A DNA stretch of 64,000 nt, taken from an uncultured Lachnospiraceae bacterium (GTDB lineage: Bacteria > Bacillota > Clostridia > Lachnospirales > Lachnospiraceae). This document shows, one piece after another, positions 21,313 through 32,243 of the stretch. The notes beneath the pieces are model-generated. The model saw only the letters and a list, made by a program, of their open reading frames with translations, was not told the DNA's origin and did no database searches. The stretch is taken from NCBI GenBank assembly GCA_947382625.1, contig CANDAG010000014.1, positions 22,233 to 86,232 on the forward strand. The letters are read 5' to 3'. How positions within the stretch are numbered: the stretch's first letter is position 1; every line of letters starts with the position of its first letter. A program made the translations under genes and the position numbers.

Positions 21313-22104
21313 TTATATTTTACCGGATTTCCGCAATAAGGAACAAATAATGATGCTCACTGCCGCCAGAACGATCTGGGAAAGCGCCAGTTCATGTGCT
21401 GCCCGCAAATAGGAATCCGGCGTATCCATATGATACAGCCAGTCATTTGCATACGCAAGCTGACTCAGGGCAGCAATATTTAATATGGAAGCACATGCGT
21501 TTTTGTGCCTGCCGAAAGTATTCTGCATGAGTGCGATCACTACGATTAAAGCGATGATTTTGAGAATAGTACTATAAAACGGTCCTACCTGATGCAGTTC
21601 TATTCCAAGGAAAGGAAAGGGGGCTTTTAAGTTTATGAGATTCTGTGCTACATATTCGTTTATCAGCAAACAAAAAATAAATACTGCACCGGAAATGCCT
21701 GTTCCTGCTATGGTGGCTTTTCTGTTATCTGAAAACTGCCAGTTTCCCGCAAGTCCCGCAGCGCAAAGGAGCAGAATACAGAAAACCACAGAGGGAATCT
21801 GTTCATAATTGATCAGGCCGCCATATCCCACAAAAAATCCTATATATGTGATGCCCACCAGAAGTACCAGTATAAGCTTTCCAAGCCGCTCTTTGTGCAG
21901 GATCATACTGCGAACTTTTTTCAGGTAGTCAATCTGTTTATCAGCCGCCTTTCCTGTTGTGATTACTGTGTTTTTCATCTGCTCCAGCTTTTCTCTGCAT
22001 TCACTGCATTCTGCAATATGTTCATCTACCAGCTCTCGTGTATCCTCTGAGCAGATCTCGTCCGCATAGGACGGCAGAAGATCCTGTATGATATTACACT
22101 TCAT
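21313..22104 (-). CDS. Zinc-finger anti-sigma factor, membrane-bound
   Basis: A 263-residue protein. The N-terminus has the zf-HC2 anti-sigma motif: Cys in MKCNIIQDLLPSYADEICS, then ELVDEHIAECSECREKL (H-x3-C-x2-C). About six hydrophobic segments follow. It should hold the sigma factor encoded just upstream inactive at the membrane until a signal arrives. The genes overlap (sigma stop at 22094); ATG 22104 is used, while TTG 22110 has better spacing to AGGAG. The large multi-pass C-terminal region is more than the usual single helix and may be the sensor. Confidence 0.85.
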   Translation of the reverse strand: MKCNIIQDLLPSYADEICSEDTRELVDEHIAECSECREKLEQMKNTVITTGKAADKQIDYLKKVRSMILHKERLGKLILVLLVGITYIGFFVGYGGLINYEQIPSVVFCILLLCAAGLAGNWQFSDNRKATIAGTGISGAVFIFCLLINEYVAQNLINLKAPFPFLGIELHQVGPFYSTILKIIALIVVIALMQNTFGRHKNACASILNIAALSQLAYANDWLYHMDTPDSYLRAAHELALSQIVLAAVSIIICSLLRKSGKI

Positions 22105-22606
22105 TTTCAAATTTTTCTCCTCTCTTTCTTCCCTTCAGCAGGCGTTCCTTACCCCGGTAAAAGGTCACTCTTGACCAGTTTTCGCTTTTTCCCAGGATTT
22201 CTCCGATCTCCTTAAAAGAAAGCTCCGCCATAGTTCTCAAATAGATTACCTCCCGCATCTGTTCCGGAAGGCTTTGCATATCCTTCAATACATCAAGAAG
22301 GTCATAACGCCTGATCAGTTTCTCCTCAATTCCTTCTTCATGAGGACTGTTTGTGGTTATTTCATCTAAATGAATCTCCTCGGAGGGAATCTCCTTTCCA
22401 TGTTTCCTCAGATATTGCAGATAAATATGTTTGGCAATCTGACAGAGCCATACGCTGATTTTACAGCTATGATCATAACGGTTTATGGAATTCATTGCCC
22501 GCAAAAAGGTCTCCTGCGTCAATTCCTCAGCAAGCTGTGGATCATGGCAGTATTTTAAGAGAAAGCGATATACCAATTTCGCGTTTTCCTGGTATATTTC
22601 CTCCAT
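22094..22606 (-). CDS. ECF-type RNA polymerase sigma factor
   Basis: A 170-residue sigma-70-family factor of ECF size. Region 2 is at about 5-70 (LVYRFLLKYCHDPQLAEELTQ then ETFLRAM; ISVWLCQIAKHIYLQYLRK) and region 4 at about 110-160 (SLPEQMREVIYLRTMAELSF then KEIGEILGKSENWSRVTFYRG). It redirects RNA polymerase to a small regulon. Strong RBS GGAGGAGGG. The anti-sigma gene overlaps its 3' end, the standard arrangement. A motif fitting an ECF promoter lies upstream, implying autoregulation. Confidence 0.9.
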   Translation of the reverse strand: MEEIYQENAKLVYRFLLKYCHDPQLAEELTQETFLRAMNSINRYDHSCKISVWLCQIAKHIYLQYLRKHGKEIPSEEIHLDEITTNSPHEEGIEEKLIRRYDLLDVLKDMQSLPEQMREVIYLRTMAELSFKEIGEILGKSENWSRVTFYRGKERLLKGRKRGEKFENEV

Positions 22607-22629
22607 AGCCCTCCTCCTTTCTGCTTATA

Positions 22630-22656
22630 TATCCGTTTGGGAGCCCGTTCGTTACA
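22630..22656 (-). promoter_or_regulatory. Putative ECF-type promoter (autoregulation)
   Basis: On the minus strand TGTAAC (22651-22656) and CGGATA (22630-22635) are 15 bases apart, 24 bases before the sigma gene. TGTAAC/CGT-like pairs are typical of ECF promoters in Firmicutes. Confidence 0.45.
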
Positions 22657-22675
22657 CTTACATATAAAATTAATC

Positions 22676-22698
22676 GCCGTCACGCTTCGCGGGGCGGC
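22676..22698 (-). repeat. Dispersed 23-nt GC-rich imperfect palindrome, copy 1
   Basis: Read on the minus strand it contains the family core CGCGAAGCGTGAC, with 5' GCCG and 3' CGGC arms; eight of nine arm pairs form. It lies between the histidine kinase stop (22728) and the sigma promoter. See also 32209, 44763 and 61681. Confidence 0.65.
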
Positions 22699-22727
22699 TG
22701 ATTGGATTAAAATAGGATATTGTAATG

Positions 22728-24050
22728 TTATGATTTCGCGGGCAGATTAACCGTAAACAGGGCGCCCCCTTCTTCTGAATCAGCAACCGTGATGCTTCCG
22801 TGATGGGCATGAACAATTTCAAAGGCAATAGACAATCCCAGTCCGAAATGCCCTTTGGCGCTTCGGGATTTCTCTGCCCGGTAAAATCGGTCAAATATTT
22901 TTTTCTTATCATCATCGGAGATACCGATGCCGCTGTCTGAAACAGAGAAGCAGAAATTCGCTTTCCCGGAGGCTTTTCCGGTATACAAAAGAGATACATG
23001 GATTTTTCCATGCTCCGGTGTATAGCTGATGGCATTGTGCAGCAATATGGAGATCACCTGTCTGATCCGGTCGGGGTCACAGTCGCAGGAGGGCAGAGCG
23101 TCATCCGGCAGGCTCAGAGAAAGAGAAAGGGATTTCTCTTTTGCCAGGGTTTCAAATGCTTCACAGGTATTTAATAAAAGGGTATCCAACTCTACCGGTT
23201 TTTTGTGGATAGAAAAACGATGATTGTCGGATTCCGTCAGGGTGAGCATATCCTCAATCAGCCGTGACATACGCTTTCCCTCCTGGCGGATCGTCTTTAG
23301 GAAGCTTACCTGCTGGTCATGGCCTACATTGTCAAAGCATTCTGCAGAGGACAGGATAACTGCTAAAGGAGTGCGTAGCTCGTGAGAGGCGGAGGCGATG
23401 AAGCTGGTCTGCTTTTGCTGGCTTTCCTGTATGGGCTTCAAAAGAATGCCGGTAAAAATCCAGGAAAAAACAATAAATATGAAGATAGAACCCAGATCAA
23501 TGAAAAGAAAACGGATTCGTTGCTGCAGGATTTGCTTTTCCATCAGGCTTAAAGGTGAGATAACAACTATTTGTAATAAGGAAGATTTTTTTTCGATGGT
23601 GATCACCGAACCAAAATAGTACTTGCCCACAGAGGGAGACAGGAAGCGGTACTCTGTGTGATAGGATACATACGGGGAGGAAGGAAGCTCCGAACCCTCT
23701 GATATGCGAAAGCTCTGGCGGTAGAAGTCCAGACTCTCCTGCAAAACAGTATCGCTGGAAGCTTCGGAAGGCTGGGACAGGCGGTTGTACAGGAAGGGGA
23801 TATCATTATCCAGTACCAGAAAGGCATAGTTCCCCTGGGCTTCCATTTTGGAGAGCCATTCCATGGAGATCACGGATTGCTGCTCCAAATTGGTAGCAAT
23901 AGTGTTGATATCATTTTTAAAAGAATTATATTGGTTTCTGTAAAGGCTTGTCTCGGAAATATACAGATAACACAGGGACATGACGATCATGAGAGTGGCG
24001 GTGATCCCTGCACACAAAACGGTAAGCCTCAGGTGAACCTTCTTATACAT
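22728..24050 (-). CDS. Sensor histidine kinase
   Basis: A 440-residue membrane kinase. A transmembrane helix at about 10-30, an extracytoplasmic sensor of roughly 140 residues, a second helix near 175-200, then the dimerisation box FIASASHELRTPLAVIL (His near 222) and the ATPase domain: HNAISYTPEHG (N box), SDSGIGI (G1), HFGLGLSIAF (G2). It phosphorylates the response regulator encoded immediately upstream. RBS GGAGAAATACCT before ATG. The pair is divergent from the 25-31 kb operon, and the direct repeats before that operon suggest it is the target. Confidence 0.93.
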   Translation of the reverse strand: MYKKVHLRLTVLCAGITATLMIVMSLCYLYISETSLYRNQYNSFKNDINTIATNLEQQSVISMEWLSKMEAQGNYAFLVLDNDIPFLYNRLSQPSEASSDTVLQESLDFYRQSFRISEGSELPSSPYVSYHTEYRFLSPSVGKYYFGSVITIEKKSSLLQIVVISPLSLMEKQILQQRIRFLFIDLGSIFIFIVFSWIFTGILLKPIQESQQKQTSFIASASHELRTPLAVILSSAECFDNVGHDQQVSFLKTIRQEGKRMSRLIEDMLTLTESDNHRFSIHKKPVELDTLLLNTCEAFETLAKEKSLSLSLSLPDDALPSCDCDPDRIRQVISILLHNAISYTPEHGKIHVSLLYTGKASGKANFCFSVSDSGIGISDDDKKKIFDRFYRAEKSRSAKGHFGLGLSIAFEIVHAHHGSITVADSEEGGALFTVNLPAKS

Positions 24051-24078
24051 AGGTATTTCTCCGATACAACTAAATTTA

Positions 24079-24771
24079 TTACTTTTTGGAAGCCGGAGTA
24101 TCCTGCAGACGATAACCGATTCCGCGGATGGTTTTGATCTGCAGATTGCTTCCGGCGCCTTTTAAGCGTCTTCTGAGAAAATGGATATAATTATCCAGAT
24201 TACCATCCTCCACGTCGCTGTCCGGGCCCCATACCTTTAATAGAAGAAGGCTTCTGGAAAGGGTCTGGTTTTTTCTTCTCAGGAAGGTTTCCATTAAAGC
24301 CGCTTCCCGTTTGGATAAGGTACAGCTTCCCAAAGGCCCTTCCAGCCGGTCCTCGTTCATATACCAGATAATATCAGATACAGATAAAATATCGTCATCA
24401 TCTGTGAAAGCGGAAGGCCGTCTTGTGATACAGCGGATCCTGGCAAGAAGCTCTTCCGTCTCAAAAGGCTTTACCAGATAATCATCGGCGCCTGAGTCAA
24501 GTCCTGTCACCTTATCATTTAAAGTCCCCAGAGCTGTCAGAAAAATAACCGGCGTAGAGACACCTTTTTTGCGGAGTCTGGTGAGCACCTCCGTGCCGTC
24601 CAGATGAGGGAGCATTCTGTCTAACAATATAATATCGTGAATATTCTGTTCACCATAATAAAGGGCTTCCTCACCGTCAAAACAGCAGTCTACAGTAAAG
24701 CCCTCTAACTCCAGTGAAATGGCAAGTGTCTGATTGAGTTGTCTGTCGTCCTCTGCAAGTAAAATTCTCAT
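24079..24771 (-). CDS. OmpR-family response regulator
   Basis: A 230-residue regulator: receiver domain with Asp8/Asp9, phospho-acceptor Asp51 (HDIILLDRMLPHLDG) and Lys near 101 (GADDYLVKPF), then a winged-helix DNA-binding domain (LSKREAALMETFLRRKNQ; VEDGNLDNYIHFLRRRLKG; IKTIRGIGYRL). The start at 24771 (MRILLAEDD) has GAGGTG seven bases before it; a longer frame to 24819 lacks one. It probably binds the TTAGAGA direct repeats at 24926-24943, and related sequence near 24825-24846 could mean autoregulation. Confidence 0.93.
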   Translation of the reverse strand: MRILLAEDDRQLNQTLAISLELEGFTVDCCFDGEEALYYGEQNIHDIILLDRMLPHLDGTEVLTRLRKKGVSTPVIFLTALGTLNDKVTGLDSGADDYLVKPFETEELLARIRCITRRPSAFTDDDDILSVSDIIWYMNEDRLEGPLGSCTLSKREAALMETFLRRKNQTLSRSLLLLKVWGPDSDVEDGNLDNYIHFLRRRLKGAGSNLQIKTIRGIGYRLQDTPASKK

Positions 24772-24925
24772 GTCGTTCACCTCGTCAAAGTAATGTTGAT
24801 ATGGAAGGTATTCTATCATAAAAATCTTTAAAAATCCTCTAAGACAATACTACTATATTTGGTAGTGGATGTTCAAGTTAATCGAAGGGTAAAGCGACTG
24901 TTGTAAATAGTTAGTTTTAACATTT

Positions 24926-24958
24926 TTAGAGAAATCTTAGAGATTTAGTTGCTATATT
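24926..24958 (+). promoter_or_regulatory. Response-regulator-type direct repeats and -10 element
   Basis: TTAGAGA occurs at 24926-24932 and 24937-24943, exactly 11 bases apart, followed ten bases later by TATATT (24953-24958). There is no recognisable -35 box. Repeats in helical phase replacing the -35 region are typical of OmpR-type activation. Confidence 0.55.
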
Positions 24959-24989
24959 ACTTAAAACGGATTAAAAGGAGTGGACGATT

Positions 24990-25559
24990 ATGAAAAAAAG
25001 AAAAATGATTTTATGTTTATGCTTTTCGGTATTGCTTTTTGGATGCGGTGATCGTGAGGGTGAGGAGATTGCAGAACAGGAAGTGATTAATATGGAAGAG
25101 AGTGGAAACAATGAGTCTGTAGAGGATAAAGATGCAAGTGTTGTAAATGATACAGAGGTTAAGGAGGAAGGGGACACCGGAAAAGAAGACACAGACAGCA
25201 AAACAGATGAAAAATCCTTCTCAGATATGGAAGAAGCGCTGGAGGGAATGGTACAAAAGGTCGAAGAGAATTCTGTGGTGATCAGCAGGATTTTTTCAGG
25301 AGAATCAGAAGAGGATGGACTTTATTATGCCTTCAGTCCGGGAGAGGGCAGTGAAGAGGAGGAGCTGATCACAGTGTATGTCACAGATGATACCAGGTAT
25401 CAGTATCAAACCATAAAAAACGGGGGCGAGGATGTTACGGAGACAGAGGGAAGCTTTACTGATATCAAGAAGGATTTAATGGTAAAGGTAACAGGGAATA
25501 TGAATGAGACGAAGGATGAGATGCAGGCGAAGGAAATTGTAATTATAGAGGTAGTTTGA
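24990..25559 (+). CDS. Acidic lipoprotein with DUF5666-like C-terminal domain
   Basis: A 189-residue lipoprotein: signal peptide with lipobox LLFGC near residue 19, then about 60 very acidic, low-complexity residues (Glu/Asp/Lys/Thr), then a folded part from about 85 (EGMVQKVEENSVVISRIFSG ... ITVYVTDDTRYQYQTI ... DLMVKVTGNMN ... KEIVIIEV). The C-terminal pattern is that of small OB-like domains annotated DUF5666. RBS AAAGGAG. It is first in the operon after the phased direct repeats and 34 bases before the propeller/binding-protein fusion. Function unknown; a sensor or accessory of the transporter is possible. Confidence 0.72.
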   Translation: MKKRKMILCLCFSVLLFGCGDREGEEIAEQEVINMEESGNNESVEDKDASVVNDTEVKEEGDTGKEDTDSKTDEKSFSDMEEALEGMVQKVEENSVVISRIFSGESEEDGLYYAFSPGEGSEEEELITVYVTDDTRYQYQTIKNGGEDVTETEGSFTDIKKDLMVKVTGNMNETKDEMQAKEIVIIEVV

Positions 25560-25593
25560 TAAATAAAAAAGAGACAAAAAGAAAGGAGTTATT

Positions 25594-28038
25594 ATGGTAC
25601 ATAAAATGAAGAAACACAAAAAAATCTGGTCATTGCTTCTGGCGACAGCACTTAGCATTTCTATGCTTTCGGGATGCGGAGGCAGTCCGGCGGACAATGC
25701 AGGAAGCAGCAATGCAGACTCTCCGGCAGCGGAGACAGAAGATTATAATGGCGGCAGTGATCAGAGCAGTGAGACAGAAGAAAAGAAATCCCCGAATATG
25801 GAAGATACTTCCGATGATAATGGCGGTAATACAGCGATGGGACGCTATGTGGAAACCATTTCGGATTTATCTGAGTTCTGTGAAAGGGTAAGCGGAGTTA
25901 CCAGAACGCAGGATGGCTCCCTGGTAGTGACGGACTATAACGGAACCCAGATGATATCCAAAGATAACGGCGCAGAGTGGGAACCGGACAAACTAAGCTG
26001 GTTCAAGGATCTGGATATGAGCTATGTATTTAGTCTCGCCTACGGACCTGACGGTACGGCCGGTATTATCTATAAGCCGGAAAAAGAAGAAGCTGAAGGC
26101 ACAGAGGAGGATGAGAAGGGAGATTTCTGGGCGGACGCCCAATGTCTTGTCATTAAGCCGGACGGAAGCCGGATCCAGGTGGAAGCAGGCGGCGCGGAAG
26201 AAGGGTATCCTGAGAATGTCTTTGTCACAGATAGCGGGGATATTTTTGTAAGTACGATGAATGGCGTGATCCGTCAGGTAAAGGATGATGGCAGTACGGA
26301 GAAGATCCTTACCGTAAATAAAAGACCGGAACAGATATGCTTTCAGGGGAATCTGATGATCATGGATGCGGAGAGATATGACGGTTTTCTTATCTATGAT
26401 CTGGAGAAAAAGGAGTATGTAGAGGATGAGGTTTTGCACGATTTTGTGCAGGAGAATTATAAAGACAGAAGCTACAGTACTTCAGACACCTTTGAGGTAG
26501 TCTTTTTTCCGGGAGAGGATGGCGTGCTTTATATCGCAGGAGAAAAAGGCCTGCACCGTCATGTGATCGGCGGAAGCGTTATGGAACAGGTGATCGATGG
26601 GGCGCTTTCCTGTTTTGGAAACCCTTCCTACAGCCATTCCCTGATACAGATGATCGAGCTCCCGGATCATGAGTTCCTTGCGGTATTTTACGGAGGAAAG
26701 GCGGCGCACTTTGTCTATAATCCGGATGTCCCTACAGTGCCGGATGAAAGGCTTAAGGTATATAGTCTGAAGGAAAATAGTACCCTGCGTCAGGGAGTCA
26801 GCATTTATCAGACAGGTCATCCTGAGGTTTATGTGGATTATGAGGTAGGGATGGATGAGGGTGATTCTGTCACAAGAGATGATGCTCTGAAAAAATTAAA
26901 TACTCAGATCATGGCGGGAGAGGGGCCGGACGTGATCATTCTGGATAATATGCCTCTCAAATCCTATATTGAAAAAAATCTGCTTCTGGATCTGAGCGAA
27001 TGCCTTGGAAGCCTTCAGGGAGAGGACGCCCTTTTTGAGAATATAGTAGGAGCCTTCAGGACGGATGGAAAGGTGTATGCGGTGCCCTGTGAGATTCAGC
27101 TGCCTTTGATGGCAGGAAAAGAAAAGTACATTTCCATGGCAAAGGATCTTGGAGGGATCGCGGATATGATGGAAGAGCTCAGGGCGGATAATCCTGAAAA
27201 GCCCCTGCTGCGTATCTGTTCCGAAAAGGGGATCATGCGGTTTTTCGCCATGACCTCGGCTCCTGAATGGATTAATGAGTCCGGTGAGCTTGACACAGAG
27301 GCGGTAAAGGAATTTTTAAAGCAGACAAAGCGGATCTACGATGCCCAGATGGAAGGGCTTCCTGCCCAGTATGTAGAGGATTATATGACCAGCAATGTGA
27401 ATTATTCCAGCTATTTCGGCGGTTCCAGAGAGGATTCGGATTATTTCAGGACGCCCTATGAAATGGGATATCTGGCAGGAGAGGCTCAGCTGGCCATGGG
27501 AACCACTTATTATCACAGCGGGATCTGTGAGATGTTCTCCATCAAAAAGGTGGAGGGCTTTGAGGATGACATGATCCTTCCTATGAGCGGGATGAGCAGC
27601 GATGTCTTTATTCCCAAAACCCTGATCGGAATCAATGCAGGTTCATCCAATATAGATACGGCAAAGGAAATGTTAAGAACCCTTCTGGGAAATGAAAACC
27701 AGAGCAATCTGTATTCCGGCTTTGCCGTAAATAAGGGAGCATTCCCCAAAATGTATGATATTAATGAGGAATGGATCAGTGAAGAAGGCATATTCAGCTC
27801 TATAGGATCGTCGAGTCCTGATGGCAAATCTTTTCATATGAATATTTATATGCTTTCAGAGGAGCAGCGTCAGACCGTACAGAAGTGGATGGAAACAGTT
27901 TCCACTCCCTATCTTGAGGATACTGTGGTGGAAACGGCTGTGTATAATGCAGGGATTGAGTATTTTCGTGATCTTGCCAGCCTTGACGAGGCGGTAGAGG
28001 CGGTTGCCCGGGGGCTGGAAATTTATATGTCGGAGTAA
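25594..28038 (+). CDS. Lipoprotein: N-terminal beta-propeller-like part fused to family 1 solute-binding protein
   Basis: An 814-residue lipoprotein with lipobox SGC near residue 27 and a Ser/Glu-rich linker to about 85. Residues about 90-380 show repeated short strands typical of a beta propeller (TRTQDGSLVVTDYNGTQMIS, FVTDSGDIFVSTMNGVIRQV, FFPGEDGVLYIAGEKGLHRH). From about 390 the sequence is a solute-binding protein: DALKKLNTQIMAGEGPDVII, LLDLSECLG, then a late NKGAFPKMYD and QRQTVQKWMETV. Ordinary binding proteins are about 430 residues, so the propeller is an added domain. RBS AAAGGAG. Two permease genes follow immediately, so it serves that transporter; the ligand is unknown. Confidence 0.85.
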   Translation: MVHKMKKHKKIWSLLLATALSISMLSGCGGSPADNAGSSNADSPAAETEDYNGGSDQSSETEEKKSPNMEDTSDDNGGNTAMGRYVETISDLSEFCERVSGVTRTQDGSLVVTDYNGTQMISKDNGAEWEPDKLSWFKDLDMSYVFSLAYGPDGTAGIIYKPEKEEAEGTEEDEKGDFWADAQCLVIKPDGSRIQVEAGGAEEGYPENVFVTDSGDIFVSTMNGVIRQVKDDGSTEKILTVNKRPEQICFQGNLMIMDAERYDGFLIYDLEKKEYVEDEVLHDFVQENYKDRSYSTSDTFEVVFFPGEDGVLYIAGEKGLHRHVIGGSVMEQVIDGALSCFGNPSYSHSLIQMIELPDHEFLAVFYGGKAAHFVYNPDVPTVPDERLKVYSLKENSTLRQGVSIYQTGHPEVYVDYEVGMDEGDSVTRDDALKKLNTQIMAGEGPDVIILDNMPLKSYIEKNLLLDLSECLGSLQGEDALFENIVGAFRTDGKVYAVPCEIQLPLMAGKEKYISMAKDLGGIADMMEELRADNPEKPLLRICSEKGIMRFFAMTSAPEWINESGELDTEAVKEFLKQTKRIYDAQMEGLPAQYVEDYMTSNVNYSSYFGGSREDSDYFRTPYEMGYLAGEAQLAMGTTYYHSGICEMFSIKKVEGFEDDMILPMSGMSSDVFIPKTLIGINAGSSNIDTAKEMLRTLLGNENQSNLYSGFAVNKGAFPKMYDINEEWISEEGIFSSIGSSSPDGKSFHMNIYMLSEEQRQTVQKWMETVSTPYLEDTVVETAVYNAGIEYFRDLASLDEAVEAVARGLEIYMSE

Positions 28039-28042
28039 GGCA

Positions 28043-28951
28043 ATGCATAGACGAAAAAGCAGGAGATCTATCAATCATTTAAATCGAAAGAATTTAAGTC
28101 GAAAAAAACTGGGGGCCTTCTTAAGCTTTATGGCTCCCAGCCTTCTGGGAGTTACGGTTTTTGTGTTGCTCCCTTTCGGGGATGTGGTGAAAAGATCCTT
28201 CACCACGGCAGTGACGGGACAATTTACAGGCATGGCAAACTATGGGACGATCTTTCAGAATCAGGCGTTTCTGATCGCAGTCAGAAATACGCTGAAATTT
28301 ACATTGGTGTGTATCCCTCTTCTGGTGTTGATCGGGTTTTGCATTGCATGGCCGTTAAGTAAGCTAAAGGAAGCAGGGCTGATCAAATCGGTGTATCTGT
28401 TTCCTCTTGCCATGCCTACAGCAACCATTGTTATGGTATGGAAAATGGTATTTTACAAACAGGGCTTCTTAAATCTGTTTTTATCCCGGCTGGGAGAGCT
28501 GACGGGGATGTGGGGGGAGATACATACGGATTACCTGGGAACGGAGGCTGCCTTCTGGGTGCTTGTGGGCAGCTATATCTGGAAGAACACAGGCTACACA
28601 GTGGTACTGTGGCTGGCAGGTATCATAGGCATTCCCACGGGACAGCTTGAAGCGGCAAGAGTCGACGGAGCAGGAGGCTTTCAGAGACTCTGGTATATTG
28701 TCCTGCCAAATTTAAAAGGAAGTCTTTATACGATTGTGATCTTATCTTTTTTGAATTCCTTTAAGATTTACAGGGAAGCCTATCTGGTGGCGGGAGCCTA
28801 CCCCCATAAAAGCATTTACCTGCTCCAGCATCTGTTCAACAACTGGTTTGTGAATCTGGAATTTGACAAGATGGCAGCGGCGGCAGTGTGTACCGGTGGA
28901 TTTTTGCTGGTGGTGATATTATTATTACAGAGAGTTTGGGATAAGGAATGA
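28043..28951 (+). CDS. ABC transporter permease (MalF type)
   Basis: A 302-residue membrane protein with six hydrophobic segments and the EAA motif (LEAARVDGAGGFQRLWYIV then LP). It starts at ATG 28043, five bases after the binding-protein stop; the frame is open back to 28004 but no ribosome binding site supports that. The N-terminus is unusually basic (about ten Arg/Lys in 30 residues). It pairs with the next permease. No ATPase gene is present in this operon. Confidence 0.9.
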   Translation: MHRRKSRRSINHLNRKNLSRKKLGAFLSFMAPSLLGVTVFVLLPFGDVVKRSFTTAVTGQFTGMANYGTIFQNQAFLIAVRNTLKFTLVCIPLLVLIGFCIAWPLSKLKEAGLIKSVYLFPLAMPTATIVMVWKMVFYKQGFLNLFLSRLGELTGMWGEIHTDYLGTEAAFWVLVGSYIWKNTGYTVVLWLAGIIGIPTGQLEAARVDGAGGFQRLWYIVLPNLKGSLYTIVILSFLNSFKIYREAYLVAGAYPHKSIYLLQHLFNNWFVNLEFDKMAAAAVCTGGFLLVVILLLQRVWDKE

Positions 28952-29811
28952 AAGAAAAAGCTTCAGTCAGCCTTAAAAAGGCAGTTACAGTATTTTCACT
29001 GATCTTACCGGGAATATTTGTGGTACTTCCCGTGCTGCTTTTGGTCACGGGATCCGTGATGGATCATTATGAGCTGAAAGGGTATCTTACTTCCGTATTT
29101 ATGGACGGGACAGAGTTTATAGGCTGGAAGCTGATACCGGATTATCCTTCCTTTGAGAATTACGGGAAGCTGCTGTTTATGACGCCCCAGTTCTTTGTAC
29201 TATTCTGGAATTCTGTAAAAATGGTGCTTTGCATTCTGGCAGGGCAGCTCCTTGTGGGGGTGCCTGCGGCCTGGGCCTTTGCGGTGTATAAGGTGCGTGC
29301 GGGAAAATTTTTGTTTGCCTTTTATGTGGTGCTTATGCTTCTGCCGTTTCAGGTCACTATGCTTTCAAGCTATCTGGTCCTTAACAGACTTTCTCTTCTG
29401 AATACCCAAAGGGCGGTGATCCTGCCTGCAGTCTTTTCTACCTTTCCTGTTTTTCTCACCTACGGAGGCTTTCGGAGTATTCCGGAGCAGCTCTTTGAGG
29501 CGGCCAGAGTGGACGGTGCAAGAGAATGGTATATCTTTTTCAGAATGGGCCTTCCCCTTGGCAAAAGCGGGATCCTGTCGGCAGTAGTGCTGGGATTTCT
29601 GGAATACTGGAATATGATGGAGCAGCCTATGGCGTTTATTGATGATAAGGCCTTATGGCCCTTGTCCCTGTACCTGCCGGAAATCGTCTGGGGGCAGGCA
29701 GGATACGCCTTTTGCGCATCGGTGATCACGCTGATCCCAGCGGCTTTTGTGTTTGTGATGGGACAGGACTATCTGGAGCAGGGGATCGTTTATTCAGGAC
29801 TGAAGGAGTAG
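28948..29811 (+). CDS. ABC transporter permease (MalG type)
   Basis: A 287-residue partner permease with the EAA loop FEAARVDGAREWYIFFRMGL followed by P, and MALPFQ-like LLPFQVTMLSSYLV. It overlaps the upstream permease by four bases (ATGA). An HlyD-like adaptor gene follows after 48 bases. The extracytoplasmic loop after helix 1 (DHYELKGYLTSVFMDGTEF to about residue 70) is of normal length. Confidence 0.9.
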   Translation: MKEKASVSLKKAVTVFSLILPGIFVVLPVLLLVTGSVMDHYELKGYLTSVFMDGTEFIGWKLIPDYPSFENYGKLLFMTPQFFVLFWNSVKMVLCILAGQLLVGVPAAWAFAVYKVRAGKFLFAFYVVLMLLPFQVTMLSSYLVLNRLSLLNTQRAVILPAVFSTFPVFLTYGGFRSIPEQLFEAARVDGAREWYIFFRMGLPLGKSGILSAVVLGFLEYWNMMEQPMAFIDDKALWPLSLYLPEIVWGQAGYAFCASVITLIPAAFVFVMGQDYLEQGIVYSGLKE

Positions 29812-29859
29812 AGGCAGTGGGACGTCGGGTAAGGGTAAATATTTTTCAGGAGGCAGGCT

Positions 29860-31173
29860 ATGGTTAAGAAAAAAACATGGGCAGGTTTATGCTTGTTTAT
29901 GATAGGAATGTGGATCTGTACGGTGGTTTCTAAGAGTATGTATACTACCAGGCTCCCGGTGGTGAATACGGTATTTGGGGAGGAGAAGTATGTGGAGCAT
30001 GTGGTGGAGGCAGAAGGGATCGTGGTGGAGGGTGGAAAGAAGGCGGTGTCGGCCTTAAGCGGGCTTAAGGTAAAGGATATTCTGGTGCATGCGGGGGATA
30101 AGGTGGAAGTGGGAGATGTGCTTTTTACCATTGATCTGGATGATCTGAAGGCGATCATGGATGAGAAGCAGTCAGCCATTCATGAGCTGCAGCTTCAGGT
30201 AAATGCAATTGAGCAAAACAAGGCTCTTGCAGCACAGAGAAAGGAGATAGAGGAGGCCCGGGCAAGAGAGGATTATGATACCACAGCCAGACAGAAGGAT
30301 ACGGATGTAGGACGGGCCATGGACAGGTATGTCCGGGCTTTGGAGGAGCTGGAAAATGCAGAGGGGGCAGATGAGGAAGAGCAGCAGAGATTAAAGGATG
30401 AGCTTCAGAGCGCCGCCTATGAGGAGGCAGATGCCATGCGGGAAAGGGATGCCGCAGTGAAGGAGGCAGGCAGGGATGTGGAGGATATTCTTATGCCGGA
30501 GAACGCAGATGCCGCCCTTTCGGTTTATCAGGCTCAGATTGCAGACCTTAAGGAGGGGCTTTTAGTCTATCAGCAGGTTCTTGATGTCCAGGGAAATGTG
30601 GCAGCGGAAAACCAGGGAATGATCACAGATATTAATGTGGAAGAAGGGGGACGGGTACCGGATGCGGCGGCCATGATGATGACAGATGAGAGTATTCCCT
30701 GCCAGTTTAAGGTAAATCTTGATAAGGAACAGAAGAAATACGTAGGGTATGGAGATGAGGTTTCCATAAGACTAGATGGCAGCAGTGCCAGGATAACGGC
30801 AAAGATCGACTATCTTTCCGAAAGCCAGTCTGTGCCGGGCGGATATGAAATTCTTTTTGATCTGCCGGAGGATATGGGCTTTCCGGGGCTTTCTGGTACG
30901 ATGGAGCATACGGAAATGGGAGAAAAGTACAGATATTGTGTTCCTGCCAATGCTGTCTATGAGAATCAGAAAAGAAATTTTGTTTATGTGGTGAGGGAGA
31001 GGGAGGGCATCCTGGGTTCTGAATATTATGTAGAGGAAGTAACGGTGAAGGTACTGGATTACAATGAATCCTGGATGGCTCTGGATGCACCGGCTCTTGA
31101 CAGTAACAGTAAGATCGTCACTTATGCAGATAAGGAGTTTGGCAAGGGAGATGTGGTGAGATGGGTGGAATAG
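29860..31173 (+). CDS. HlyD/RND-adaptor-like membrane fusion protein
   Basis: A 437-residue protein with one N-terminal membrane anchor (about 8-25), a biotinyl-lipoyl-like half (SALSGLKVKDILVHAGDKVE then VGDVLFTID near 65-90), a long charged coiled coil (about 100-215, Glu/Ala/Arg rich), the second lipoyl half (AENQGMITDINVEEGGRVP near 250) and a beta-barrel part to the end. This is the layout of periplasmic adaptor proteins of efflux pumps. It closes the binding-protein/permease operon (RBS AGGAGGC). An adaptor together with importer-type subunits and no ATPase is an odd combination. No MacB-type exporter is adjacent. Confidence 0.82.
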   Translation: MVKKKTWAGLCLFMIGMWICTVVSKSMYTTRLPVVNTVFGEEKYVEHVVEAEGIVVEGGKKAVSALSGLKVKDILVHAGDKVEVGDVLFTIDLDDLKAIMDEKQSAIHELQLQVNAIEQNKALAAQRKEIEEARAREDYDTTARQKDTDVGRAMDRYVRALEELENAEGADEEEQQRLKDELQSAAYEEADAMRERDAAVKEAGRDVEDILMPENADAALSVYQAQIADLKEGLLVYQQVLDVQGNVAAENQGMITDINVEEGGRVPDAAAMMMTDESIPCQFKVNLDKEQKKYVGYGDEVSIRLDGSSARITAKIDYLSESQSVPGGYEILFDLPEDMGFPGLSGTMEHTEMGEKYRYCVPANAVYENQKRNFVYVVREREGILGSEYYVEEVTVKVLDYNESWMALDAPALDSNSKIVTYADKEFGKGDVVRWVE

Positions 31174-31265: not shown

Positions 31266-32243
31266 ATGGATTATATCGTATTGGATTTGGAATGGAATCA
31301 GAGCAATACAGGAAGAGAGCCTGAGGTTAAGGAAATCCCTTTTGAGATCATTGATATAGGCGCAGTGAAGCTGGACGGGGACAGAAAAGAGATCGGAAGA
31401 TATGACCAGCTGGTGAAACCGGCAGTATATAAGCAGATGCACAAGGTGACTGGAAATCTGATCCACCTTCAGATGAAGGATCTGCAGGCGGGAAAGCCCT
31501 TTACAGAGATGATCCCGGAGTTTCTTTCATGGTGCGGGGAGGATTATATTTTCTGTACATGGGGACCTCTTGACCTGTTAGAGCTTCAGAGAAATATGCA
31601 TTTTTATCATATGAAGCCTTTAAGTGAGAGCTCTGTCAGGTTTCTGGATGTGCAGAAGCTTTTCAGCATCGCCTTTTTCCCCGGGCAAAGCGCGGGTCAA
31701 AGGCACAATCTGGAATATGCCATAGATTTTTTTGGAATAGAGAAGGATGTTCCGTTTCACAGGGCTTACAGTGATGCCCATTATACGGCGCGGATATTGG
31801 AGCTGCTTCCCCGGGAGGTTTTGCTCAACTATTCCATTGATACCTATGTACTCCCCAAAACCAGGCAGGAAGAGATCCATGTGATATTTCATGATTATAT
31901 GAAATATATTTCCAGAGAGTTTGAGGATAAACAGACAGCACTGGCGGATTGGGAGGTTATCAGTACAAAGTGTTATTTATGCCACAGGAATCTGCGCAAA
32001 AAAATCCGTTGGTTTTCGCCCAACGGAAAGCATTATTACAGCGTTGCCCTTTGCCCTGTCCATGGATATATGAAGTCCAAGATCAGGATACGCAAGTCAG
32101 AAAGCGGCAAGGTCTATGTGGTCAAAACCTCCAAGTTTATCAAGGAGGAGGACTTCCAGAAGCTGCTCCAGAAAAAGGAACAGGCAAAGGAGCTGCATAA
32201 GATCAAACGCTGTCCCGCCTCGCGGGCCGGCTTATTGAATTAA
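31266..32243 (+). CDS. DEDDh 3'-5' exonuclease (DnaQ-like) with C-terminal Cys motif
   Basis: A 325-residue nuclease. Exo I is IVLDLEWNQ (Asp6/Glu8 region), Exo II lies in FCTWGPLDLLEL, and Exo III is FHRAYSDAHYTARIL with the His and Asp of the DEDDh type, as in KapD/ERI-1-like proteins. After about 225 a Cys-rich stretch (CYLCHRNLRKKIRWF ... VALCPVHGY) may bind metal or RNA. The last dozen residues (CPASRAG) are encoded by a copy of the dispersed 23-nt palindrome. It converges on the carboxypeptidase gene with a four-base overlap. Confidence 0.82.
   Translation: MDYIVLDLEWNQSNTGREPEVKEIPFEIIDIGAVKLDGDRKEIGRYDQLVKPAVYKQMHKVTGNLIHLQMKDLQAGKPFTEMIPEFLSWCGEDYIFCTWGPLDLLELQRNMHFYHMKPLSESSVRFLDVQKLFSIAFFPGQSAGQRHNLEYAIDFFGIEKDVPFHRAYSDAHYTARILELLPREVLLNYSIDTYVLPKTRQEEIHVIFHDYMKYISREFEDKQTALADWEVISTKCYLCHRNLRKKIRWFSPNGKHYYSVALCPVHGYMKSKIRIRKSESGKVYVVKTSKFIKEEDFQKLLQKKEQAKELHKIKRCPASRAGLLN
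32209..32231 (-). repeat. Dispersed 23-nt GC-rich imperfect palindrome, copy 2
   Basis: Minus strand reads GCCGGC-CCGCGAGGCGGGAC-AGC; nine of ten arm pairs form (including a G-T) around a 3-nt loop. It overlaps the last codons of the exonuclease gene and lies just beyond the end of the carboxypeptidase gene. Confidence 0.6.

Follow-up and report, generated by a model that had tools for sequence, protein, structure and literature searches.

We analysed a 64,000-nucleotide stretch of DNA from an uncultured Lachnospiraceae bacterium (assembly GCA_947382625.1, contig CANDAG010000014.1, positions 22,233 to 86,232; hereafter the window) and focused on positions 24079-31173, where open reading frame (ORF) and domain calls place an OmpR-type regulator divergent from an operon of lipoprotein, binding protein, permease 1, permease 2 and adaptor, all tightly packed. 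The results suggest a conserved clostridial ABC system, namely an energised type I importer of the wall zone equipped with a MacA-type tube, a reading to which we give a probability of roughly 0.55. The module joins a permease pair of the type I, CUT1-like kind to an adaptor of the MacA/AcrA type, and its ancestral form also had a stand-alone MacB periplasmic core domain. The ORF and Pfam calls confirmed the tightly spaced divergent operon with two importer-type permeases and an adaptor that an initial annotation of the window had described; of the minus-strand two-component system placed in the same interval, the regulator lies inside it and the kinase beyond it.

To survey the gene order, we read 170 different module loci from family, class and phylum samples and a named collection, of which 130 have at least 4 kb of flank on both sides; the scan of the named collection retained the best 80 of 588 confirmed stretches. 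Five duplicates were dropped before counting, together with L085 and L222 (permease-2 score below 240) and L038, L084, L130, L156 and L206 (no permease 2 from ORF picking). Many loci come from metagenome bins, where taxonomic assignments can be mistaken (L094, for instance, carries the label Muribaculaceae), and ORFs were called mechanically. The adaptor lay beside the permeases in 161 of the 170 loci, and as an ORF in 127 of the 130 with full flanks, a six-frame search recovering it in the remaining three (432, 399 and 35 bits, the last one weak). By comparison, the adaptor was absent near all 20 other importer permease pairs taken from the window's genome, as were the MacB domain and an OmpR-type system; these controls were the best-scoring of 47 other permease matches, not a random draw. 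When the adaptor was used as query, 13 of 150 family genomes (the window's own included) matched at E ≤ 1e-15, giving 17 distinct loci, all of which adjoin a permease-2 match (one of them at a contig end). These results argue that the adaptor belongs to the permease operon. Chance neighbourhood is ruled out by the contrast between 161/170 module loci and 0/20 control pairs, and the family loci contradict the idea that the adaptor normally accompanies a separate ABC exporter. The gene-order survey proposed in the initial annotation thus shows a recurrent adaptor-permease pairing. Its other check, co-conservation of the adaptor with the fused binding protein, gave a weaker signal: the adaptor tracks the permeases more closely than it does the fusion protein, which was kept in 106 of the 130 loci. 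A search with permease 2 matched 39 of the 150 family genomes at 1e-40; at class and phylum level, a permease profile found matches in 44 of 391 genomes (1e-75) and in 9 of 398 (1e-60), respectively. The nearest named relatives among the matches listed are Lachnospiraceae, bacteria without an outer membrane.

The adaptor comprises an N-terminal transmembrane helix, lipoyl and barrel domains, a hairpin whose first helix has 74 residues, and a membrane-proximal domain. The HlyD-like adaptor of the initial annotation was upheld by an HlyD_3 match above cut-off and refined by structure comparison, according to which the modelled protein appears to be of the MacA/AcrA kind. Both permeases are BPD_transp_1 proteins with an EAA coupling loop, as in type I importers. 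Their closest model scores are to Ugp/Mal/Glc importers, although below the cut-offs of those models, and no NCBIfam model listed for any of the operon's five proteins reached its cut-off; the closest PDB matches of permease 2 are AlgM2, SugB and MalG. For permease 1, ATG 28043 is the best start, with GGAG ahead. The EAA columns of permease 2 (E-A-A-D-G-A) are conserved at 91, 88, 95, 97, 100 and 100% in 45 sequences, and those of permease 1 at 95, 72, 100, 69, 74 and 95% in 43 sequences, counted on module permeases only and with no control columns. These counts replaced an earlier strict pattern, passed by 77 of 129 and 81 of 130 module permeases compared with 12 of 20 and 7 of 20 controls.

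No ABC ATPase was found by Pfam domain search among the nine proteins encoded at 21313-31173. Among relatives, 15 of 170 loci (13 of 130 with full flanks) have an MsmX-like/MalK-type ATPase gene on the same strand no more than seven genes away. Beyond the family the gene can be part of the operon, as in each of the six phylum-sample loci from there (L199 and L201-L205, with the order permease 1-permease 2-adaptor-MacB domain-ATPase-binding protein in L202-L205), but in only 4 of 34 class-sample loci outside the family. The window's genome has one MalK-type ATPase gene above the OB_MalK cut-off and one below it, both on contig C37, where MsmX is our own label for the ATPase gene. At least one OB_MalK ATPase was encoded by 34 of 36 module-bearing family genomes, counted from the 38 other family genomes with a permease-2 match; ATPases lacking the OB_MalK domain would escape this count. 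The genome's 50 importer permease matches face one strong and one weak MalK-type ATPase, and one ATPase is probably heavily shared among its importers. So-called multitask ATPases, shared between importers, have been described in Bacillus and Streptococcus (PMC7658222), and an operon lacking its own gene is therefore ordinary. We infer that the operon uses a shared ATPase and has not lost transport, because the EAA loops are kept, relatives can have an adjacent ATPase and 34 of 36 genomes encode one. The ATPase expected of a type I importer is thus present as a gene elsewhere in the genome, and its pairing with these permeases is presumptive. The operon does lack the gene, as the initial annotation had it, but this does not amount to a loss of transport. 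A strain-specific deletion, which that annotation named as a refuting condition, is rejected, since absence from the operon is the rule in the family (15 of 170 loci have an adjacent gene, and 34 of 36 genomes carry one somewhere), and lost transport is rejected as the cause of the absence by the intact loops and the ATPase genes present.

Proteins encoded after the adaptor matched MacB_PCD (Pfam) in 31 of 40 relatives, and a profile of them finds MacB and YknZ structures. This stand-alone MacB domain was present in 107 of 170 module loci (88 of 130 with full flanks). A FastTree tree of permease 2, in which 52 of 171 inner branches are open and long branches were noted, falls into a type I half (61 rows, support 81) and a type II half (109 rows, support 99), with the window in a 52-row clade within type II. 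Outside the window's clade, 87 of 89 loci had the MacB domain (45 of 46 in type I and 42 of 43 in type II), compared with 1 of 41 loci inside it; the domain is absent from the window's operon and from 40 of the 41 loci of its clade. On the tree, its presence requires four changes in all, the main one a loss in the window's clade, with L116 as the exception inside. The MacB-type transmembrane and ATPase parts that would mark a MacAB pump are likewise absent from the operon, whose membrane part is MalFG-type.

The binding protein was examined for the predicted fusion of a beta-propeller to a solute-binding domain. The solute-binding part stood, with SBP_bac_8 above cut-off in the C-terminal part, so that a CUT1-kind solute-binding domain, as in type I importers, is present in the operon. 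Residues 82-391 were predicted all-beta, mostly with pLDDT of about 90 or more, and are likely, though not proven, to form a propeller, since the fold-search lists for this domain returned solute-binding proteins only. The fusion looks like a later addition, because some module loci (L202-L205, L208, L213, L214 and L218) have a shorter binding protein (roughly 440-500 residues) that seems to lack the beta domain; all of these retain the adaptor except L214, whose sequence ends at the permeases. The small lipoprotein by itself gave no Pfam match at 0.01, and 5 of 17 aligned homologues matched DUF5666, so the earlier label 'DUF5666-like' is fair. Its homologues at 120 bits or more are found in the window's clade, where they are sometimes paired, and in the relatives L053, L054 and L151; matches below about 120 bits were set aside because they resemble common signal peptides and acidic linkers.

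We further analysed the 170-base spacer between the regulator and lipoprotein genes. It holds two outward-facing 21-base elements (Table 1), each made of tandem heptamers that begin 11 bases apart, with an extended -10 behind them. We scored TTAGAGA-N4-TTAGAGA (14 letters) in 50 divergent regulator/operon spacers shorter than 500 bases; the window is included and is not an independent test, because the consensus letters were drawn from it. The score was at least 12 in 45 of 50 spacers and at least 13 in 32, whereas Markov sequences reached 12 in 1.06% and 13 in 0.08% of cases. Sites of at least 11 faced the operon in 39 of 50 spacers and the regulator in 37, the operon-facing consensus being TTAGAGA...tTTAGAGAtt..t.TG.TAt..T. 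Of 700 other gaps, 35 scored at least 13, and none of the 40 of these 700 gaps that came from control loci scored 12 or more. A genome-wide search allowing one mismatch returned three sites, two in the window's spacer and one on contig C5, compared with one site for the reversed pattern. The C5 box precedes a lone lipoprotein paralogue (L247 7681-8418; E 1e-42 to the operon's lipoprotein family), and because it stands there independently a box-defined regulon is likely. The C13 and C50 copies of the module described below do not carry the box (best 9/14). A sigma-70 promoter scan was uninformative (12 sites compared with 12.4 expected). Kinase and regulator genes of the window's family occur at 61 of 170 loci (53 of 130 with full flanks) and, at the thresholds used, near none of 46 type I loci, some of which have more distant kinase/regulator genes nearby. 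These patterns link the two-component system with the operon through the tandem box and extended -10; the regulator may bind the TTAGAGA box, and the system is probably autoregulated, since boxes stand in both divergent promoters. Conservation of the operator gives good support to the earlier description as a signal-responsive envelope system.

The genome is 88% complete, and the permease-2 search gave three matches of module kind, located in the window, on C13 (75% identity) and on C50 (41%). All three copies have binding protein, two permeases and adaptor in the same order, and none showed an ATPase gene within its operon. The C50 copy (L010 6265-16247), which is of type I, adds a second propeller-type binding protein and a 364-residue protein matching MacB_PCD, the only short module-type MacB domain in the genome. 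A fifth binding protein of the propeller type lies on C89, a 7 kb contig (L248 3469-5649), without permeases and near a transposase-like frame. Pairs of BlaI (Penicillinase_R) and BlaR1 (Peptidase_M56) genes adjoin the C13 copy (L009 14257-16389) and L057 (10809-12322), which lie on separate branches, and are perhaps an alternative switch. The flank survey covered 119 of 132 ORFs drawn from 486, the other 13, some of them module or lipoprotein (LIPO) proteins, being excluded by hand. The flanks of the control importers (60 of 70 ORFs) include LacI, AraC and glycosidase genes.

We propose that the binding protein, held by its lipid anchor, binds a ligand within the wall zone, that adaptor subunits assemble into a tube rising from the membrane, and that the permease pair, driven by a shared MsmX/MalK-type ATPase, carries the ligand into the cell. 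The MacB domain of relatives would dock the tube onto the permease; in the window's clade, which lacks this domain, the adaptor would have to dock directly or through a partner encoded elsewhere. The operon would be switched on by its own autoregulated OmpR-family system through the TTAGAGA tandem box. The missing catabolic theme of the flanks, the BlaI/BlaR1 pairs and the operator ahead of the regulator's own gene point to a ligand related to the wall or envelope rather than a dietary sugar. Several observations weigh against this proposal. No catabolic partner was apparent among the 25 of 157 families displayed for the 119 flanking ORFs (2 Cellulase, 1 GH31), in contrast to the control importers of this genome, which weakens the case for a nutrient role, and the autoregulated OmpR system and the BlaI/BlaR1-like pairs resemble envelope stress more than feeding. 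The adaptor sequence falls below NCBIfam cut-offs (RND_mfp, the best model, gave 54 bits with a cut-off of 94.9, and the MacA model 17.7 with a cut-off of 342) and, in the window, retains its membrane-proximal part though the MacB domain is missing. The linker length of the binding protein showed no correlation with adaptor length (rho -0.08, P = 0.64, 34 loci), and two of the 36 family genomes (74% and 93% complete) had no OB_MalK ATPase.

BceAB-type transporters signal to their kinases, and the permeases, binding protein and adaptor could similarly report ligand or flux to the facing kinase, with net transport minor. The two-component system near 53 of 130 loci, the box conserved in the spacers and found at 13/14 or better ahead of 22 of the 109 module loci that lack an adjacent system, and the lack of a prominent catabolic neighbour are consistent with such sensing. 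However, the type I half keeps permeases, adaptor and MacB domain with no system of this family (0/46), so that sensing through this kinase is not ancestral, and the EAA loops and ATPase genes are kept; we therefore consider sensing as the main function unlikely. Somewhat less probable still is a detoxifying pump in which the permeases, working outward or as extractors, export or remove a compound active on the wall or membrane. Efflux systems use MacA-like adaptors and MacB domains (PMC5768738 and PMC5985334), and BlaI/BlaR1-like genes adjoin two module loci, yet the permeases are closest to importers by model score and PDB match, the solute-binding protein is a mark of import, and the MacB-type transmembrane and ATPase parts are missing. 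An ordinary sugar importer with an adaptor gene hitchhiking from an efflux operon, for which the ordinary CUT1 parts and shared ATPase might speak, is close to refuted by the pairing of adaptor and permeases across the module loci, the control pairs and the 17 family adaptor loci.

Compared with known systems, the importer proposed here shares with BceRS-BceAB an OmpR-type system that faces the transporter genes, here with a box in each promoter; the likeness lies in gene order and operator, and its transporter is binding-protein dependent and not FtsX/MacB-type. CUT1 importers with a shared ATPase (MsmX/MsmK systems, MalEFGK2, UgpABCE and SugABC) are alike in their binding protein, two EAA-loop permeases and ATPase gene elsewhere (PMC7658222); the module differs in adding the MacA/AcrA-type adaptor, usually the MacB periplasmic domain, and the extra all-beta domain on the binding protein, and in its OmpR-type two-component control, whereas LacI and AraC types flank this genome's control importers. 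The MacAB-like pumps known in Gram-positives, Spr0693-0694-0695 (Streptococcus pneumoniae) and YknWXYZ (Bacillus), share the adaptor fold with membrane-proximal domain and the MacB/YknZ-type extracellular domain common to most module relatives (PMC5768738, PMC5985334 and PMC4887032); unlike them, the module has no MacB-type permease with its own ATPase, and has a MalFG-type pair and a binding protein instead. Titles and openings of abstracts in the open PMC literature, with subscription papers and preprints outside the search, yielded no description of importer parts combined with an adaptor, a MacB domain or a propeller fusion, and for the TTAGAGA motif only one ToxR paper, unrelated judging from the start of its abstract. 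A separate ABC architectural class, in which a MalFG-type binding-protein-dependent importer with a multitask ATPase carries a permanent MacA-type tube and a stand-alone MacB docking ring, is a tentative suggestion for which we would give slightly less than even odds.

The coordinates of the features are given in Table 1. Beyond the kinase lies an ECF sigma factor and zf-HC2 anti-sigma pair (21313-22606, minus strand). The adaptor gene is followed by an exonuclease-like gene (RNase_T, 31266-32243), retained in two near relatives (L086 and L087) probably through synteny only, and then by a gene on the opposite strand. A role in anti-phage defence was rejected, as PADLOC gave one weak match, of the regulator to SduA (E 1.8e-4).

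Table 1. Features of the two-component system and the divergent transporter operon (window coordinates).
Feature	Position	Strand	Basis or remark
Sensor histidine kinase	22728..24050	-	HisKA + HATPase_c; second gene of the two-component operon; outside 24079-31173
OmpR/PhoB-family response regulator	24079..24819	-	Response_reg + Trans_reg_C
Tandem box TTAGAGGATTTTTAAAGATTT ahead of regulator gene	24822..24842	-	12/14 consensus letters
Tandem box TTAGAGAAATCTTAGAGATTT ahead of transporter operon	24926..24946	+	14/14 consensus letters
Extended -10 TGCTATATT	24950..24958	+	Spacing kept in relatives
Small lipoprotein (LIPO), DUF5666-related	24990..25559	+	Homologue alignment
Lipoprotein: all-beta (propeller-like) domain ~82-391 fused to CUT1-type solute-binding domain ~383-814	25594..28038	+	
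Permease 1, UgpA/GlcT-like, EAA loop intact	28043..28951	+	BPD_transp_1
Permease 2, UgpE/MalG-like, EAA loop intact	28948..29811	+	BPD_transp_1
MacA/AcrA-type membrane-fusion adaptor	29860..31173	+	HlyD_3 above cut-off; structure comparison

Adaptors of the MacA/HlyD kind are usually treated as exporter parts. Importer permeases joined to a MacA-like adaptor in many gut Clostridia may represent an unrecognised kind of envelope transporter, and such a widespread pairing would change the annotation of adaptor genes and offer a concrete, testable answer on the role of adaptors in bacteria without an outer membrane. If the separate architectural class is real, tubes of the MacA family would take part in uptake and not just in export, and the periplasmic domain of MacB would be able to function apart from the membrane and ATPase parts of that protein. 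The tight operator makes the inducing signal, and hence the ligand class, accessible by a simple reporter. The genome holds three differently wired copies, and the MacB-less clade provides a natural experiment on the role of the MacB domain.

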